From: Glycomyces buryatensis
GTDB taxonomy: Bacteria; Actinomycetota; Actinomycetes; Mycobacteriales; Micromonosporaceae
Direction of reading: 5' to 3'
Assembly: GCF_004912275.1 (NCBI RefSeq)
Contig: NZ_STGY01000067.1
Location: 245,401-309,400, forward strand
DNA: 64,000 bases
Position numbers and translations under genes: made by a program. The notes beneath the pieces are model-generated. The model was not told the DNA's origin, searched no databases, and worked only from the letters and a program-made list of their open reading frames with translations. Positions within the stretch are counted from its first letter, which is position 1; each line of letters begins with the position of its first letter. Shown here in pieces: positions 46,327 to 61,763 of the stretch.

Positions 46327-47478
46327 ATGCGCCGATGGATATCGGCCGCCTCCGCGGCGGCGGTCACGTTCTCGCTCGCCTCGTGCTCGTTCGGCCAGCC
46401 GCCCGAGCCGACCGGCGGCGAGCCGCCGAACCTGCCCACCCCCAGCGGCGCCCCCGAGGAACCGGCGACCCTCCTCGACGTCGTCGCCGAAGGCCTCGAG
46501 GTCCCCTGGGGCCTGGGCTTCCTGCCCGACGGGACCGCCCTGCTCGGCGAGCGCGACTCCGGGCGGCTGCTGTCCATCTCCCTGGCCGAGGACGGCACCA
46601 CCGGCGACCCCGAAGAACTGCGCACCATCGAAGTCGACCCCGCGGGCGACGGCGGCCTCATGGGCATCGCCGTCTCCCCCGAATTCGACTCGGACTCCAC
46701 GATCTTCCTCTACTACTCCAGCGAGGACGATAACCGGATCGCCAGCCTGGATCTGGACGCCGAGGGTGAGCCCGAACCGATCCTCACCGGCATCCCCTCC
46801 GGCAGCACCAACAATGGGGGCGCGCTCGCCTTCGGCCCCGACGGCTACCTGTACGCCGCCACCGGCGACGCCGGGAACAGCCAGAACTCCCAGGACGAGG
46901 ACTCGCTGGGCGGCAAGATCCTCCGCATCGACTCAGGCGGCGAGCCCGCCGCGGACAACCCCGACCCCGACTCCCCCGTCTACTCCAGCGGCCACCGCAA
47001 TATCGAGGGCCTGACCTGGAACGCCTCCGAAGAGCTGTACGCCACCGAGTTCGGCACCGACATCGCCGACGAGATCAACCTGATCGAGCCCGGCGGCAAC
47101 TACGGCTGGCCCCTGAACGAGGGCGCCGGCAACGACGGCGACTACATCGATCCCGTCCTCACCTGGGAACCCTTCGAGGCCTCTTGCTCCGGCGCCGTCT
47201 TCGCCGAGTCCACCCTCATCACCGCCTGCCTGCGCGGCCAACGACTGTGGACGGTCGAATTCGACTCCTCCGGTGCGGTCAGCGGCGAGCCGCAAGCCGC
47301 GCTCCAGAGCGAGTTCGGCCGACTACGATCGGTCGTCATGGGCCCCGACGGGATGCTGTGGGTGACCACGTCCAACCGCGACGACGAATGCGTCGAAGAA
47401 CGCGGCTGCGTCGCCGACGACACCGATGACCGCGTCATCCGCTTCGCCACCTCCTATGCCGCGCAAGGAAGGGTCTGA
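46327..47478 (+). CDS. PQQ-dependent aldose sugar dehydrogenase-type lipoprotein
   Basis: A 383-residue exported beta-propeller. Signal peptide and lipobox SLASC (Cys about residue 20), then a Pro/Gly-rich linker. The soluble aldose dehydrogenase (YliI/Gdh-B) pattern is clear: VPWGLGFLPDGTALLGERDSG, GLMGIAVSPEF, NNGGALAFGPDGYLYAATGDAG, GHRNIEGLTW (catalytic His region) and PGGNYGWPLNEG. It oxidises sugars in the cell envelope if PQQ is supplied; actinobacterial homologues are often annotated only as glucose/sorbosone dehydrogenases. The stop shares a base with the next ATG. Confidence 0.9.
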   Translation: MRRWISAASAAAVTFSLASCSFGQPPEPTGGEPPNLPTPSGAPEEPATLLDVVAEGLEVPWGLGFLPDGTALLGERDSGRLLSISLAEDGTTGDPEELRTIEVDPAGDGGLMGIAVSPEFDSDSTIFLYYSSEDDNRIASLDLDAEGEPEPILTGIPSGSTNNGGALAFGPDGYLYAATGDAGNSQNSQDEDSLGGKILRIDSGGEPAADNPDPDSPVYSSGHRNIEGLTWNASEELYATEFGTDIADEINLIEPGGNYGWPLNEGAGNDGDYIDPVLTWEPFEASCSGAVFAESTLITACLRGQRLWTVEFDSSGAVSGEPQAALQSEFGRLRSVVMGPDGMLWVTTSNRDDECVEERGCVADDTDDRVIRFATSYAAQGRV

Positions 47479-49139
47479 TGAACCACCGGCTCCGCTCTGC
47501 ACTGGACTTCCTCAGGAACCTCGGCGACGCCGCCCTGCGCCGCGCCTCCAGGACCAGACACAGATTCGACGGAGCCTGGCACCGGCTGGAGGCCTCACGG
47601 CCCGGCCGCGCGATCATCGCCACCTGGTACCACGCCGGACGGACCTGGACGCGCCTCCGCGCCTCCCACCGCGCCCAGCGCCTCGCCTCGGTCGCGTCGA
47701 TCCTCCTCGTCGGCACCGTCGCCGCCGCTGGCGGACTGCTGCTGGTCGGCAACACCGAGGCCGACATCGGGCCGTTCGAGACCACCATGTCGCTGCGCCC
47801 CGACGTGCACGGCGAGACCGTCGTCAACATCCCCCCGCTCGGCGACGTCGTCTTCGACAGCCACGACGGCCCGATCGGCGTCAACCTCACCCTCAACTCG
47901 GTCGATCCCGAAGCGGCCCAGACCATCGTCAACACCTCCGACGGGGTCTCCTCCGCCTCTGAGGGCCTCGCCTCGGAGGTCACCGAGGCCGTCGGCCGCG
48001 TCGTCTTCGCCGCGCTCGCGATCGTCACGCTGTGCGGCCTGCTGGTCGGCGCACTGGTCTTCCGCACCATGCGCCGCACCCTCTTCACCGCCATCACCTC
48101 GCTCGCGGTCACGGCCGCGATGATGGGCTACGCCGCGTCCACCCTGCGGCCCGAGTCGATCTCGCAGCCTCGCTATGAGGGCCTGCTCGCCTACGCCCCC
48201 AGCGTGGTCGGCAATGCCGAGGACATCGCGGTGAACTACGAGGAGTACGTCGCCAACCTCCAGAAGTTCGTCACCAACATCTCGGAGTTCTACGCGCTGG
48301 CGATGGACATGCCGCAGTTGGGCATCAACGACGACTCGATCAAGGTCCTGCACGTCTCCGACATCCACCTCAACCCCTCCGCCTGGCACGTCATGGAATC
48401 GGTCGTCGACCAGTTCGACATCGACGCCGTGGCCGACACCGGCGACATGAACGACTGGGGCTCCGAGCAGGAGGCCGAGATCTTCTCGCGCGGAGTCGAG
48501 CAGATCGACTGCCCCTACGTGTTCGTCAAGGGCAACCACGACTCGGCCATCACCGTCGCCGCGCTCGCCGCCTACGACAATGTGGTGATCCTCGACGGCG
48601 AAGTCCAGGAGGTCGAAGGGCTGCGGTTCGGCGGCGTCGGCGACCCTCGCTTCACCCAGGACAAGGGCAACCTGCCCACCAGCGAGTACGCCCAGCAGAT
48701 GCTGACCGAGTCCGGCGAGCGGCTGAACACCGCGATCGAGGACGCCGGCGGGGCCGACCTGGCAATGGTCCACGAACCCGAGATGGCGGTGCCGCTCACC
48801 GGCAGTGTGCCGCTGGTGCTGGCCGGCCACACCCACGAGCGGGCCGTCCAGGACCTCGGTGAGGGCACCACGCTCATGGTCGAGGGCTCCACGGGCGCGG
48901 CCGGGATCCGCACCTTCCAATCCGAGACGCCGTTGAAGATGCAACTCGACGTCCTCTACTTCAATCCGGACTCGAAGGCGCTCACGGCGTACGACTCGAT
49001 CGACCTCGGCACCGTCGGCGAATCCGACGTGACGCTGGAACGGACGGTCATCCCGACCGAGGAACAGGTCGGCGAGACCGATGTCCATGATGAGCAGAGC
49101 CAGGACGGCTCGGAAAGCTCAGAGTCACCTCAGGATTAG
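47478..49139 (+). CDS. Membrane-anchored calcineurin-like metallophosphoesterase
   Basis: A 553-residue protein. An N-terminal amphipathic region and a helix (about 73-93), an extracytoplasmic segment, and two helices (about 172-220) precede a phosphoesterase domain with HVSDIHLNP (about 293), DTGDMNDWG (about 317), KGNHDS (about 354), MVHEPEM (about 431) and AGHTHER (about 451). The metal site is complete. Substrate unknown. It is translationally coupled to the sugar dehydrogenase gene (TGATG), suggesting a shared envelope function. The tail is acidic and Ser-rich. Confidence 0.88.
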   Translation: MNHRLRSALDFLRNLGDAALRRASRTRHRFDGAWHRLEASRPGRAIIATWYHAGRTWTRLRASHRAQRLASVASILLVGTVAAAGGLLLVGNTEADIGPFETTMSLRPDVHGETVVNIPPLGDVVFDSHDGPIGVNLTLNSVDPEAAQTIVNTSDGVSSASEGLASEVTEAVGRVVFAALAIVTLCGLLVGALVFRTMRRTLFTAITSLAVTAAMMGYAASTLRPESISQPRYEGLLAYAPSVVGNAEDIAVNYEEYVANLQKFVTNISEFYALAMDMPQLGINDDSIKVLHVSDIHLNPSAWHVMESVVDQFDIDAVADTGDMNDWGSEQEAEIFSRGVEQIDCPYVFVKGNHDSAITVAALAAYDNVVILDGEVQEVEGLRFGGVGDPRFTQDKGNLPTSEYAQQMLTESGERLNTAIEDAGGADLAMVHEPEMAVPLTGSVPLVLAGHTHERAVQDLGEGTTLMVEGSTGAAGIRTFQSETPLKMQLDVLYFNPDSKALTAYDSIDLGTVGESDVTLERTVIPTEEQVGETDVHDEQSQDGSESSESPQD

Positions 49140-49164: not shown

Positions 49165-50505
49165 TTACAGCGCCGAACCGAGGACGGCTGCGGCTATCGA
49201 GAAGTAGATGACCAGGCCGGTCGCGTCGCAGAGGGTCGAGATCATCGGGGCCGAGACGACCGCCGGGTCGATGCCGACCTTCTTGGCCATCAGCGGCAGG
49301 AAGGATCCGACGAGCGTCGACCAGGTACAGATCACCAGCAGGGTCAGGGCGATAATCAGGCCGATCTGCCACCCGTAGACGAGGCCGACGATCGGCCCGC
49401 CGACGACCGACAGCAGCACACCGAGCATGAGCCCGACCCGGCCCTCGCGCCAGATGATCTTGAAGGTGTCGGAGAAGCGGACCTCGCCGACGGCCATGGC
49501 GCGAATGATCATCGCCGACGCCTGGGAACCGGAGTTGCCGCCCACGCCGGTGAGCAGGGAAATGAACACCGCCAAGACGGTGACCTGCGAAAGCGAGGCC
49601 TCGTAGTGGTTGAGCACCGAGACGGTGAGGATGCCGGCGAAGCCCAGCATCAGCAGCCACAGCGCCCGCTTGCGGGCGAGCATGAACACGCCCGCCGCCA
49701 GGTAGGGCCGCTCCAGCGGCTCGGCCGCACCGGCTCGCGTGGCGTCCTCGGTGTCCTCGGCCTCGAGGATCTCCATGGCGTCGTCGAAGGTGATGAGCCC
49801 GACCAGGCGGTCGTCGTGATCGACCACGGGGAGCGCGTTGAGGTTCGCCTCCTGGATGAGGCGGGCGGCCTGCTCCTGGTCGGCGTCGGTGGTGATCTGG
49901 TGCAGCTCGTCGGCCATGAGCTCGGCGACCAGCGACTCGGGGTCGGCCGCCACCAAGTCGGGAAGGACGACGGTCCCGATGAGCTTGCGGTGCCCATCGG
50001 TCACCGGGAGGACGTCCAGATGACGAGGGCGGGCCCGCAGGTGCCGGATGCGCTCGATCGCGGCGGCCGCGGTCATGGAGGCGCGCAGCGACACGTAGTC
50101 GGGGGTCATGATGCGCCCGGCCGACTCGGGGTCGTAGCCGAGGAGCTGGGCGGTGCGGCGGCGCTCGGCCGGGCTCAGCTGTCCCTGGAGCCGGGTGGCG
50201 ACCATCGCCGGCATCTCGTCGAACAGCTTGGCGCGGTCGTCGGCCTCCATCGAGTCGAGCAGGTCGTGCACGGTCTCGGTCTTGAGTCCGTCGAGCAGTT
50301 CCTGTTGGTGGACCGTGTCGAACTCCTCGAATACGGCGAGAGCGCGGTCTTTGGGGAGCAGGCGAAAACGCAAAGCCTGCTCGGCCAGGTCCATGCGCGG
50401 GAGTTCATCGGCCAATGTAAGGGTCGAAGTATCGGCGAGTTCCGAACGGAGCGCGGTAAGCGAATCCATGGCCGCGGGCGAAATCGGCTGAACAGTCTGC
50501 TGCAT
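49165..50505 (-). CDS. mgtE: Magnesium transporter MgtE
   Basis: A 446-residue Mg2+ channel/transporter. Order of domains: MgtE N-domain (about 20-125, LFDEMPAMVATRLQGQLSPAERR), paired CBS domains (about 135-255), a plug helix, and five membrane helices (about 280-445) with SLLTGVGGNSGSQASAM and a C-terminal DATGLVIYFSIA segment containing the pore acidic residue. ATG 50505 has AGGAGG 8 nt upstream; the in-frame GTG 50514 overlaps that site. A 150-nt leader with a small ORF and alternative hairpins precedes it. Confidence 0.95.
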   Translation of the reverse strand: MQQTVQPISPAAMDSLTALRSELADTSTLTLADELPRMDLAEQALRFRLLPKDRALAVFEEFDTVHQQELLDGLKTETVHDLLDSMEADDRAKLFDEMPAMVATRLQGQLSPAERRRTAQLLGYDPESAGRIMTPDYVSLRASMTAAAAIERIRHLRARPRHLDVLPVTDGHRKLIGTVVLPDLVAADPESLVAELMADELHQITTDADQEQAARLIQEANLNALPVVDHDDRLVGLITFDDAMEILEAEDTEDATRAGAAEPLERPYLAAGVFMLARKRALWLLMLGFAGILTVSVLNHYEASLSQVTVLAVFISLLTGVGGNSGSQASAMIIRAMAVGEVRFSDTFKIIWREGRVGLMLGVLLSVVGGPIVGLVYGWQIGLIIALTLLVICTWSTLVGSFLPLMAKKVGIDPAVVSAPMISTLCDATGLVIYFSIAAAVLGSAL

Positions 50506-50521
50506 GCCAGCCACCTCCTAA

Positions 50522-50609
50522 CACGAGGAAACAGCCGTGCCCCTCGTGCGAGCGAAATCGCCGCAGGTCAGGCCGTCCGCCTCACAATGTAAGAGGACGC
50601 GGGGCACGG
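50522..50609 (-). promoter_or_regulatory. Alternative-pairing leader of mgtE
   Basis: In the mgtE leader RNA (minus strand) CCGTGCCCC (50609-50601, inside the small ORF) can pair with GGGGCACGG (50543-50535). CACGAGG (50548-50542) can instead pair with CCTCGTG (50528-50522), a hairpin ending 2 nt before the AGGAGG ribosome site of mgtE. The two stems share 50542-50543 and compete. The arrangement resembles a translation-controlled switch. No match to the classical M-box or other riboswitch core was found. Confidence 0.55.
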
Positions 50610-50666
50610 GTGGGAGAAATGAGAGAACACGTCGGTATCTCGACTAGATCCGGGGTCATCGCCCAT
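50568..50666 (-). CDS. mgtE leader peptide (small upstream ORF)
   Basis: A 32-codon ORF with a 10-nt perfect anti-16S match, AAGGAGGTGA (50684-50675), exactly 8 nt before its ATG, among the strongest ribosome sites in the window. The peptide begins MGDDPGSSRDTD: acidic residues and an early proline, the composition known to destabilise translating ribosomes at low Mg2+ in enterobacterial MgtL. The remainder is His/Ser/Pro-rich, then VRRTA. The stop lies 62 nt before the mgtE ATG. A regulatory leader peptide is inferred; no homologue search was possible. Confidence 0.6.
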   Translation of the reverse strand: MGDDPGSSRDTDVFSHFSHPCPASSYIVRRTA

Positions 50667-50865
50667 TTGGTCTCTCACCTCCTTCGGTCGTGCGCCATTA
50701 GCTTTGCGCAGAACTGCGGATCGAAGAACTGATCCGGCTGGCGCGGTCAAGGGTAGCAAGATCGCGTGAACAACATCTCCAATCGACTACCCGGAGGACT
50801 CGTGGCTCACACCATCGGAAAACGGGAGGAGAACGAGCGGTTGCCAGAAAAAGCGCGATTGCTAC

Positions 50866-50912
50866 AAAAAGGCCGAGGGGCCGTGCGACTCCTGGTCGTC
50901 CCGGCCCCTCGG
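50866..50912 (-). terminator. Intrinsic terminator after gatB
   Basis: CCGAGGGGCCG (50873-50883) pairs with CGGCCCCTCGG (50902-50912), 11 bp, 18-nt loop, followed on the minus strand by a T-run (the plus-strand AAAAA, 50866-50870). It starts 12 nt past the gatB stop. Confidence 0.9.
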
Positions 50913-50923
50913 TGTCTCGAATC

Positions 50924-52414
50924 CTACCCGGCCAGCTTGTCCAGAATGATCTGGCGGACCGAGCCGGCGTCTGCCTGGCCCTTCGTGGCCTTCATGACCG
51001 CGCCGATGAGGACTCCGGCGGCGGCGTGCGCGCCACCGCGGATCTTGTCGGCCACGGCCGGGTTGGCGGCGATGGCCTCGTCGACGGCGGCTTCGAGCGC
51101 GCCGGTGTCGGAGACGACCTCCAGGCCGCGCTTCTGGGCGACCTCGGCGGGCGAGCCCTCCCCGACGAGGACGCCGTCGATGACCTGACGGGCCAGCTTG
51201 TCGTTGAGCCGCCCGTCGTCGACCATGCCCTGGAGCTCGGCGACCTGCGCGGGCGTGATCTGCAGCGCGCCGAGTTCCTCGCCGGCCTCGTTGGCGCGCC
51301 GCGACAGCTCGCCGAGCCACCACTTGACGGCGGACGAGGAGGCGGCACCGGCGGCGATGGTCGACTCGATGAGTTCGACGGCGTCGGCGTTGACCACCGA
51401 CTGCATCTCCTTGTCCGCCAGGGACCATTCGGCCTGGAGGCGCTCGCGGCGCTGGCGGGGCGGCTCGGGGAGGCTGGCGCGCAGCTCCTCGACCCATTCG
51501 CGCGAGGGCTCCATGACGGCCAGGTCGGGCTCGGGGAAGTACCGGTAGTCGGTGGCTTCCTCTTTGGACCGGCCGGGGCTGGTCTCGCCGGTGCCCTCCT
51601 GGAAGTGGCGGGTCTCCTGGATGATCTTGATGCCCTCGTCCAGCAGCGCGGACTGGCGGCGGACCTCGTGGCGGACGGCCCGTTCGACGCTGCGCAGCGA
51701 GTTGACGTTCTTGGTCTCGGTGCGGGTGCCCCACTCCGCGCCGGGCTTGTTCAGCGAGAGGTTGACGTCGCAGCGCATCGAGCCCTGCTCCATGCGGACG
51801 TCGGAGACGCCGAGGGAGCGGACGATGTCGCGCAGTTCGGTGACGTAGGCGCGGGCGACCTCGGGGGCGAGGGCGCCGGTGCCGGGCACGGGCTTGGTGA
51901 CGATCTCCACGAGCGGGATGCCGGCCCGGTTGTAGTCCACGAGGGACTCGGTGGCGCCGTGGATGCGGCCGGTGGCGCCGCCGACGTGGAGGGTCTTGCC
52001 GGTGTCCTCTTCGAGGTGGACGCGCTCGATCTCGACGCGGTAGGGCTTACCGTCGACGGTGACGTCGACGTAGCCCTCCTCGCAGAGCGGCTCCTCGTAC
52101 TGGGTGGTCTGGAAGTTCTTCGGCATGTCCGGGTAGAAGTAGTTCTTCCGGGCGAAGCGGGTCCATTCGGCGATGGAGCAGTTGAGCGCGAGGCCGATCT
52201 TGATGGTGGCCTCGATGGCGGCCCGGTTGGCGACCGGGAGGGCGCCGGGCAGGGCCAGGCAGACCGGGCAGACCTGGGTGTTGGGCTCGCCGCCGAAGGT
52301 GGTGGAGCAGCCGCAGAACATCTTGGTCCGGGTGTCGAGCTCGATGTGCGTCTCGAGTCCGAGGACGGGCTCGTAGGCGGCCACGGCGTCTTCGTAGGTG
52401 TTGAGCTTGCTCAT
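50924..52414 (-). CDS. gatB: Asp/Glu-tRNA amidotransferase subunit B
   Basis: A 496-residue subunit that recognises mischarged Glu-tRNA(Gln)/Asp-tRNA(Asn) and activates the glutamyl group with ATP. It has the family start [13 protein letters not shown], the zinc-site cysteines in MFCGCST and [25 protein letters not shown] and RYFPEPDLA, and the C-terminal YqeY-like tRNA-binding tail. Last gene of gatC-gatA-gatB, 5 nt after gatA. Confidence 0.97.
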
Positions 52415-61159: not shown

Positions 61160-61763
61160 CCTGTCGGCCCCACCGGCAGGCACCCTGAATCACGCGACTT
61201 GGCATCGCGAATCAACCTAGCGGCTCTCCCGGCACTGCGGGGAGAGCCGCAGTTCGTATCGCGGAAGCAATCGCCCACAAGGCTCGTCACCGCCGCCGCC
61301 CCCTCCGCCGCGCACGCCGCAGGTCGCGGCATCGACCAGGACGCGATCGACACCGCGACCGCAGATCGCGCGATGGCCGGCTGGCTCGCGGATCGGGTGG
61401 GCTACGGCCGCTGATCAGGTCATCTCTCCGACTAGACGATCCGCTTCCGTAGCGGTTAGAGCGGGCAGCGACGAAGAGGACGGATGCGGGGCGGGCGGAG
61501 ATGCGACGATCCGGTCGGATTACCTTGCGCCCCAATACAACCGATGTCGGCCTGGGCCGACTGGGACAACCAGACGGACCGGGCCGGACTGGCCGACCGA
61601 ACTCACCGGACTGGCCGGACCAATCGGGCCGGGCCGACCTACGAATATGACCCACGTCTCTTTGTCGTTAGTGGATCCAGATTTGCCGTAAATGGACACT
61701 TGAAACATAGAACAGAAGGACGGAAACCAGAAGCCCGTATGGATCGCGAAGGAGGTGAGCGGG
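61160..61763. other. 604-nt intergenic region before the HNH gene
   Basis: No supported gene. It contains an 11-bp direct repeat CCGGACTGGCC (61584-61594, 61606-61616) in a low-complexity GGCCGGAC-rich stretch (about 61570-61640), then a more AT-rich 100 nt before the HNH gene that probably holds its promoter. Confidence 0.5.

Follow-up and report, generated by a model that had tools for sequence, protein, structure and literature searches.

A conserved short leader ORF before mgtE in Glycomyces, a candidate ribosome-read Mg2+ switch with counterparts before corA in other actinobacteria

The gene for the Mg2+ transporter MgtE in Glycomyces buryatensis is preceded by a short open reading frame (uORF), and we moderately favor the reading that this cis-acting leader controls mgtE expression through the distance that ribosomes cover along the 32 codons of the uORF. 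In many other actinobacteria, similar tiny ORFs are found before two unrelated kinds of Mg2+ transporter, which suggests a built-in Mg2+ switch that is read by the ribosome. Mg2+ sensing via ribosome stability is known from enterobacteria. The DNA analyzed here is a stretch of 64,000 nucleotides (the window), and all positions are counted from its first letter. A search of the main texts of open-access papers found no paper on this uORF, and the accessible part of an S. lividans reannotation names eight leader peptides, none of them for a Mg2+ transporter.

On the minus strand of the window, gatA and gatB end at 50924, upstream of a separate mgtE leader. Sequence reading finds a terminator-like GC-rich hairpin and then a T run directly after gatB (50868-50912, minus strand), separating it from that leader. 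The mgtE gene (49165..50505, minus strand) encodes 446 amino acids plus stop, matches TIGR00400 (E, 1.9e-115) and Pfam MgtE, MgtE_N, and CBS, and its product is 77 to 82% identical to its nearest named relatives, from Glycomyces. Comparison with relatives places the start at ATG 50505; the GTG at 50514, taken by the ORF lister, overlaps the mgtE Shine-Dalgarno (SD2, AGGAGG, 50514..50519, minus strand, from direct reading and comparison). A plus-strand gene converging on mgtE (47478-49139) has weak YfcE-type phosphodiesterase matches, below curated cutoffs.

The uORF (50568..50666, minus strand) runs from ATG 50666 to a stop at 50570..50568 and lies 62 nt from mgtE. Its 32-amino-acid peptide, MGDDPGSSRDTDVFSHFSHPCPASSYIVRRTA, begins MGDDPGSSRDTD, and a uORF of this type is present in 24/24 aligned loci. 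The Shine-Dalgarno of the uORF, SD1 (AAGGAGGTGA, 50675..50684, minus strand), is a perfect 10-nt sequence located 8 nt 5' of the ATG. Direct reading of 50666..50568 on the minus strand thus confirmed the 32-codon ORF and perfect 10-nt Shine-Dalgarno that an earlier note on this DNA had claimed for the mgtE leader. SD1 can also base-pair with the anti-SD strand of H6, a hairpin described below. The SD1 10-mer occurs twice in the window versus 0.04 times expected from shuffles; by sequence reading, the second perfect AAGGAGGTGA (61749-61758, plus strand) stands before an ordinary 558-amino-acid ORF with an HNH-like region. Farther upstream, TGCTACCCT (50750..50758, minus strand) is, judging by TAnnCT conservation, the probable extended -10 of a leader promoter, and the transcript would be predicted to begin near 50743. 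In 22/24 loci, TAnnCT occurs in the 140 nt preceding the uORF, and in 17 of those 22 it begins 44 to 48 nt from the uORF start codon; the distance in the window is 89 nt.

An mgtE search among the genomes of 151 relatives yielded loci in 22 genomes of the same genus and in two sister genera, with a second mgtE copy in G016 kept outside this 24-locus set. The uORF sits at the same place in 22/22 same-genus and 2/2 sister-genus loci, and the start, frame, and acidic N terminus, on which the earlier note had staked its proposal, are kept in all of them. The start codon is ATG in 21 loci and GTG in 3 (L002, L005, L023), and a DD..S start is common to the whole set. Codons 2 to 12 (50631..50663, minus strand) read GDDPGSSRDTD in most of the 24 loci; the divergent N termini are GDDPSSSRDTN, GDDPSPSRDTD, GDDPGPSRDTE, GDDSSSPSRDTD, NDDPGDSRGVD, and GDDPGSSCDYQ. 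By Nei-Gojobori counts, which omit one inserted codon of L002, pN/pS over these codons is 0.33 for all 24 sequences (276 pairs, not independent of one another) and 0.09 in a 16-member core; for codons 13 to 32 it is 0.69 in that core, the pairs of which are likewise nonindependent. This bears out codon-level conservation of the acidic/Pro N terminus, for which the earlier note had proposed a check. In addition, the N-terminal motif is kept despite in-frame insertions in L002 and L010. As far as sequence comparison reaches, the acidic/Pro/Ser start of the Glycomyces uORF is shown to be kept as peptide.

A model covering 68 nt at the start of the uORF (the Glycomyces type, R1), searched against a family sample of 150 genomes, gave one strong match in each of 16 same-genus genomes (E of 1.7e-15 or better), matches in two sister genera (2.0e-13 and 7.4e-12), and nothing better than 1.9e-4 in the other 132 genomes. 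Two R1 matches, L049 and L051 (1.9e-4 and 3.3e-3), were taken as chance because there is no mgtE among their listed ORFs. No Glycomyces-type uORF start turned up when viral contigs were scanned.

The DDPG codons of the window uORF are followed by a run of three rare codons, TCT AGT CGA (50640..50648, minus strand). In mgtE, gatA, and gatB together, AGT and TCT each account for 0/83 Ser codons and CGA for 1/85 Arg codons. AGT CGA is kept in 22/24 loci and AGT in 24/24. The AGT Ser codon also appears in nearly all distant leaders inspected, the exceptions being AGC in L120, GGT in L214 and L281, and uncertain cases in L080 and L081. From this we infer a slow decoding step following the acidic stretch.

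The later half of the uORF carries motif a (CCGTGCCCC, 50601..50609, minus strand), which includes CCGTG in 24/24 loci and can pair, by alignment, with motif a' (GGGGCACGG, 50535..50543, minus strand), where the partner GGCACGG sits immediately upstream of the mgtE Shine-Dalgarno. CCGTG falls in frame 2 in 20 loci, frame 1 in 2 (L002 and L003), and frame 0 in 2 (the window and L024); since species use all three frames, it is conserved as RNA. Helix a:a' has 99.0% of cells paired in a 16-sequence alignment (A4). Two hairpins accompany it: H5 at the uORF end (CGTCC..GGACG, 50574..50599, minus strand), in which pairs vary as UG/CG/UA and UA/UG/CG, and H6 (CGGCTGTTTCCT / AGGAGGTGGCTG, 50508..50537, minus strand, from the local fold), which covers the mgtE Shine-Dalgarno. 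Jointly, the three helices have 98.4% of cells paired in the 16-sequence alignment, with 7 double-change cells versus 1.6 in shuffles and 2/500 shuffles as high, a result that is supportive rather than independent because the structure was taken from the same alignment. H6 contributes no double change because it is nearly invariant.

Such conservation raises the question of whether the leader is an RNA-only riboswitch for Mg2+ or another ligand, with the short ORF incidental to conserved RNA. In keeping with this explanation, 22/24 loci show no variation at the wobble positions of AGT CGA, the later half of the uORF is kept as RNA whatever the frame, and Nitriliruptoria-type loci have an M-box in the corresponding position before mgtE. 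However, Rfam finds no family at gathering score in the window, and the four matches with E values of 10 or less fall far short of the cutoffs; the window leader does not match the M-box (RF00380) covariance model. The N-terminal pN/pS (0.33/0.09), the outlasting of insertions in L002 and L010, and the related EPPS leaders described below, with synonymous changes at the Glu and Pro codons and Glu-to-Asp replacement, also weigh against it. On balance, we consider an RNA-only device unlikely.

The mgtE GGAGG is fully paired in the local fold in 19/24 loci versus 3/22 other genes, and the mean local-fold energy at the mgtE Shine-Dalgarno is -12.2 versus -8.9 in the controls, which are other genes of the window and the Glycomyces loci, few in number and partly orthologous. 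A duplex of SD1 with the anti-SD strand is weak in the window species (-10.0 kcal/mol) and reaches -16.8 to -19.5 kcal/mol in 14/24 species; a test for coevolution of the two strands is confounded by phylogeny. Constrained folding with one ribosome at five leader positions gave no consistent change in mgtE Shine-Dalgarno accessibility over the 24 species (mean opening, 5.5 to 6.4 kcal/mol with the ribosome versus 5.9 without), and therefore the folding data do not tell in which direction the switch works. With a strong SD1, mgtE close by, and its Shine-Dalgarno in a hairpin, the arrangement would also suit plain translational coupling, in which an efficient short ORF opens the mgtE site or supplies reinitiating ribosomes without any sensing. 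We hold this to be quite improbable, as coupling needs neither a conserved acidic/Pro/Ser(AGT) start that recurs phylum-wide nor a restriction of the best EPPS matches to Mg2+ transporter genes.

Outside Glycomyces, mgtE leaders with an ORF built on the plan x-[E/D]-P-x-S(AGT) occur in Streptomyces, Nocardia, and deeper lineages. The Streptomyces and Nocardia leaders are MRSEPPS[HR].. ORFs, with Glu-to-Asp in L112 and L113, and these EPPS leaders show synonymous change at the Glu and Pro codons. Several Nocardia uORFs (L131, L133, L135, L136, L139) have nested in-frame GTG starts (VAVRSEPPS / VRSEPPS). The family-f32 group has SEPSSS, SEPASS, or SDPSSS, and Pro-less mgtE leaders carry SDSSS, SDDCS, or DGDSSR, to which L002 adds DDSSS. 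An SD1-anti-SD hairpin (ACCTCC pairing with GGAGGT) was rejected as the sole reason for EPPS because several leaders use CCC at the first Pro.

We scanned for a Shine-Dalgarno followed by M.{1,3}[DE]P.{1,3}S, a motif defined after some of the sequences had been seen. The strict motif occurs in 58/120 mgtE upstream regions, which are mostly nonredundant and include many close relatives, versus 2/2,511 control windows from the same loci; with the AGT Ser codon, the counts are 57/120 versus 0/2,511. The window uORF (L001) has both forms, its acidic-Pro-x-(x)-Ser(AGT) run lying within about 10 codons of the start as in the EPPS-type leaders. Either form is found in 65/120 regions and neither within 450 nt in 55/120, although two of the latter (L131 and L136) carry the motif farther out. 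At least two pairs look like duplicates of a single record (L097/L148 and L105/L169), and both pairs are without the motif. Left out before the count were L061-L078 and L084 (named copies of Glycomyces loci), L026, L028, and L030 (with a uORF of the plan), and L027, L176, L145, and L150 (without).

Rfam searches at gathering score covered 60 loci in three sets of 20, mostly loci without the uORF, and found M-boxes in ten (L082, L087, L091, L093, L096, L097, L141, L144, L148, L153); L097 and L148 appear to be a single record. In the Nitriliruptoria-type loci, the M-box stands before mgtE at the same place as the window leader. One locus, L091, has an M-box (1843-2028), then a GDDPGSR uORF (2127-2286), and then mgtE, in series. 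L091, from the Nitriliruptoraceae, gives an R1 match at its uORF start, downstream of the M-box (E, 1.6e-5), and this match before mgtE falls outside the training genera. It is 1 of 43 loci at that level, the next best being L129 at 0.094. These distant leaders bear on the possibility that there is no functional leader and that conservation reflects close relatedness. Same-genus sequences are indeed alike, and the counted loci have relatives in common, but the constraint is codon specific, the Glycomyces type recurs in the Nitriliruptoraceae, the plan recurs before corA, and none of the 2,511 control windows has the AGT form, making relatedness by itself a most implausible explanation.

The same plan precedes the gene for an unrelated Mg2+ transporter, CorA. 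A pattern of a Shine-Dalgarno plus x-R-S-[ED]-P-P-S(AGT) had one match in each of 16/394 class genomes, 5 before mgtE and 11 before corA (all in one genus); one such corA product matches PF01544 (E, 5.9e-61). The reversed control pattern had no match in the 394 genomes. A model of the EPPS starts (R2), run on 388 class genomes, gave 26 best matches (E, 2.8e-13 to 8.8e-4), every one of which tblastn places before corA (21) or mgtE (5). CorA was confirmed by Pfam at L178, L211, and L216, and the corA assignment of L219 is by tblastn alone. Four of the 26 (L195, L196, L198, L208) were already in the training set; the rest are new and include corA leaders from the genus of the Streptomyces loci and from five further genera. 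The next four R2 loci that were fetched (L220-L223; E, 0.001 to 0.003) have neither mgtE nor corA in the stretch. In addition, corA loci were collected from 296 class genomes, 69 of which had a match at 1e-100. The 49 loci inspected comprise 20 from lower ranks and the top 30 except L277, which is truncated at a contig end. Among the 49, 18 have an EPPS/EPPG uORF (L281 being of the EPPG type), 5 have QPPS, and in 26 none was found. The QPPS uORFs before corA (L283, L285, L286, L288, L297) have 8 codons, MSQPPST./MGQPPSTP, with Gln in place of the acidic residue and an unchanged Pro-Pro-Ser(AGT).

Within Glycomyces, inspection of 16 corA loci found no such uORF in any of them, the CorA-like gene of the window genome being outside this count. 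Searched at a limit of E = 1 against 22 loci, including 18 from Glycomyces or sister genera, R2 finds no match, and thus what ties Glycomyces to the corA leaders is similarity of plan only. The Glycomyces and EPPS types appear alike in plan, which need not imply common descent, given that R2 finds no match. The link of the uORF to Mg2+ is drawn from the occurrence of this plan before mgtE as well as corA in other actinobacteria. The earlier note tied the leader to MgtE, which holds in the window; the plan is confined neither to MgtE nor to this genus, as the corA leaders and the other actinobacteria make plain. Its acidic and Pro N terminus is likewise kept in Glycomyces and is no absolute rule, since other lineages lose the Pro or the acidic residue. 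The QPPS and Pro-less leaders argue that probably no single residue is essential.

Another possibility is that the uORF senses some other state of translation, such as charged tRNA-Pro or tRNA-Ser, EF-P, or rare-codon supply, that is coupled to Mg2+ transport. The EPPS and QPPS leaders keep Pro-Pro and the AGT Ser even where the acidic residue is gone, Glycomyces has its rare codon run, and there is a precedent in Salmonella mgtM/mgtP (named in PMC8092293), which are reported to respond to ATP and tRNA-Pro. However, the core motif of the Glycomyces type contains no more than one Pro, displaced in L002, the g23, L173, and L175 types have none, and the acidic residue is the commoner constant. 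We therefore give sensing of this kind only a small chance. We consider classical amino acid attenuation unlikely because the uORF has no run of one amino acid.

Ribosome-read Mg2+ control remains the reading we prefer, and by analogy the plan, genes, and layout fit such control as in MgtL, mgtQ, and CorL. In enterobacterial MgtL, Mg2+-dependent ribosome destabilization goes with Rho-dependent termination. MgtL acts by drop-off at EPDP, involving Glu2, Pro3, and Asp4 in the accessible portion of its description (PMC11282234). Like MgtL, the window uORF is a short ORF with a Shine-Dalgarno in a Mg2+ transporter leader, and acidic residues and Pro follow directly after its start (Asp3, Asp4, and Pro5, to be set beside the excerpted account in PMC11282234). 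In contrast, MgtL controls the P-type ATPase gene mgtA, and the window uORF precedes mgtE, of another family and in another phylum; MgtL EPDP alternates acidic residues and Pro, whereas GDDPG does not; and the window uORF probably acts on the mgtE ribosome site. That it "independently evolved" relative to MgtL, as the earlier note proposed, is plausible.

The mgtQ ORF, between mgtC and mgtB in Salmonella, has acidic Asp2 and Glu5, an AGGAGG Shine-Dalgarno, and alternative stems, one covering the transporter ribosome-binding site, in the portion of the report available (PMC8092293); the mgtE ribosome-binding site in the window likewise folds into a stem, with no consistent effect of ribosome position on its accessibility. 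However, mgtQ has 8 codons, lies between two genes of an operon, and controls mgtB. CorL, a uORF in the enterobacterial corA leader, parallels the actinobacterial EPPS uORF before corA. In the excerpts available, CorL expression is inversely related to that of corA, and CorL differs in being enterobacterial and Rho dependent, with fewer acidic and Pro residues than MgtL (PMC11552253). Among RNA elements, the M-box (RF00380) takes the same place before mgtE in ten of the loci searched; the window leader is without this aptamer, whereas the L091 leader has both. At the M. tuberculosis pe20 M-box, the accessible text describes SD1 / anti-SD / SD2 competition with uORFs (PMC12810186), and SD1 in the window is complementary to the anti-SD. 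The SRC-65-1 mgtE motif is likewise a candidate cis element before mgtE with the Shine-Dalgarno in a stem, but in the part of the source at hand it is treated as a candidate riboswitch rather than a uORF, with Thioalkalivibrio as the only genus reported to have it (PMC11109978).

The likeliest mechanism, by inference, is the one described for MgtL or mgtQ, in which ribosome drop-off depends on Mg2+. At low Mg2+, the DDPG / rare-codon start (UCU AGU CGA) would make ribosomes stall or dissociate, leaving the remaining leader free of ribosomes. Bare motif a and/or SD1 could then pair with the strand adjoining or inside the mgtE anti-SD, H6 over the mgtE Shine-Dalgarno would open, and MgtE would be made. 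With sufficient Mg2+, the uORF would be translated through, and the mgtE site would remain closed. The sign of the switch and the operative pairing (a:a' or SD1:anti-SD) are the least certain parts of this scheme.

A broader reading, which we offer tentatively and rate a little below an even chance, is that these leaders represent an ancient actinobacterial class of nascent peptides that sense Mg2+, have the form x-[E/D]-P-x-S with an invariant, slow AGU codon for Ser, and regulate CorA as well as MgtE. Such a class would act by MgtL-like ribosome destabilization of separate origin, and in some leaders (L091) it would be stacked behind an M-box, placing RNA and ribosome sensing in series. If this is true, a leader-peptide plan before two nonhomologous Mg2+ transporters in an unrelated phylum would be a recurrent solution. 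It would also provide many natural sequences with which to ask what destabilizes the ribosome, whether acidic residues, Pro, or the slow AGU, and Mg2+ uptake regulation in Streptomyces and its relatives would become directly testable.
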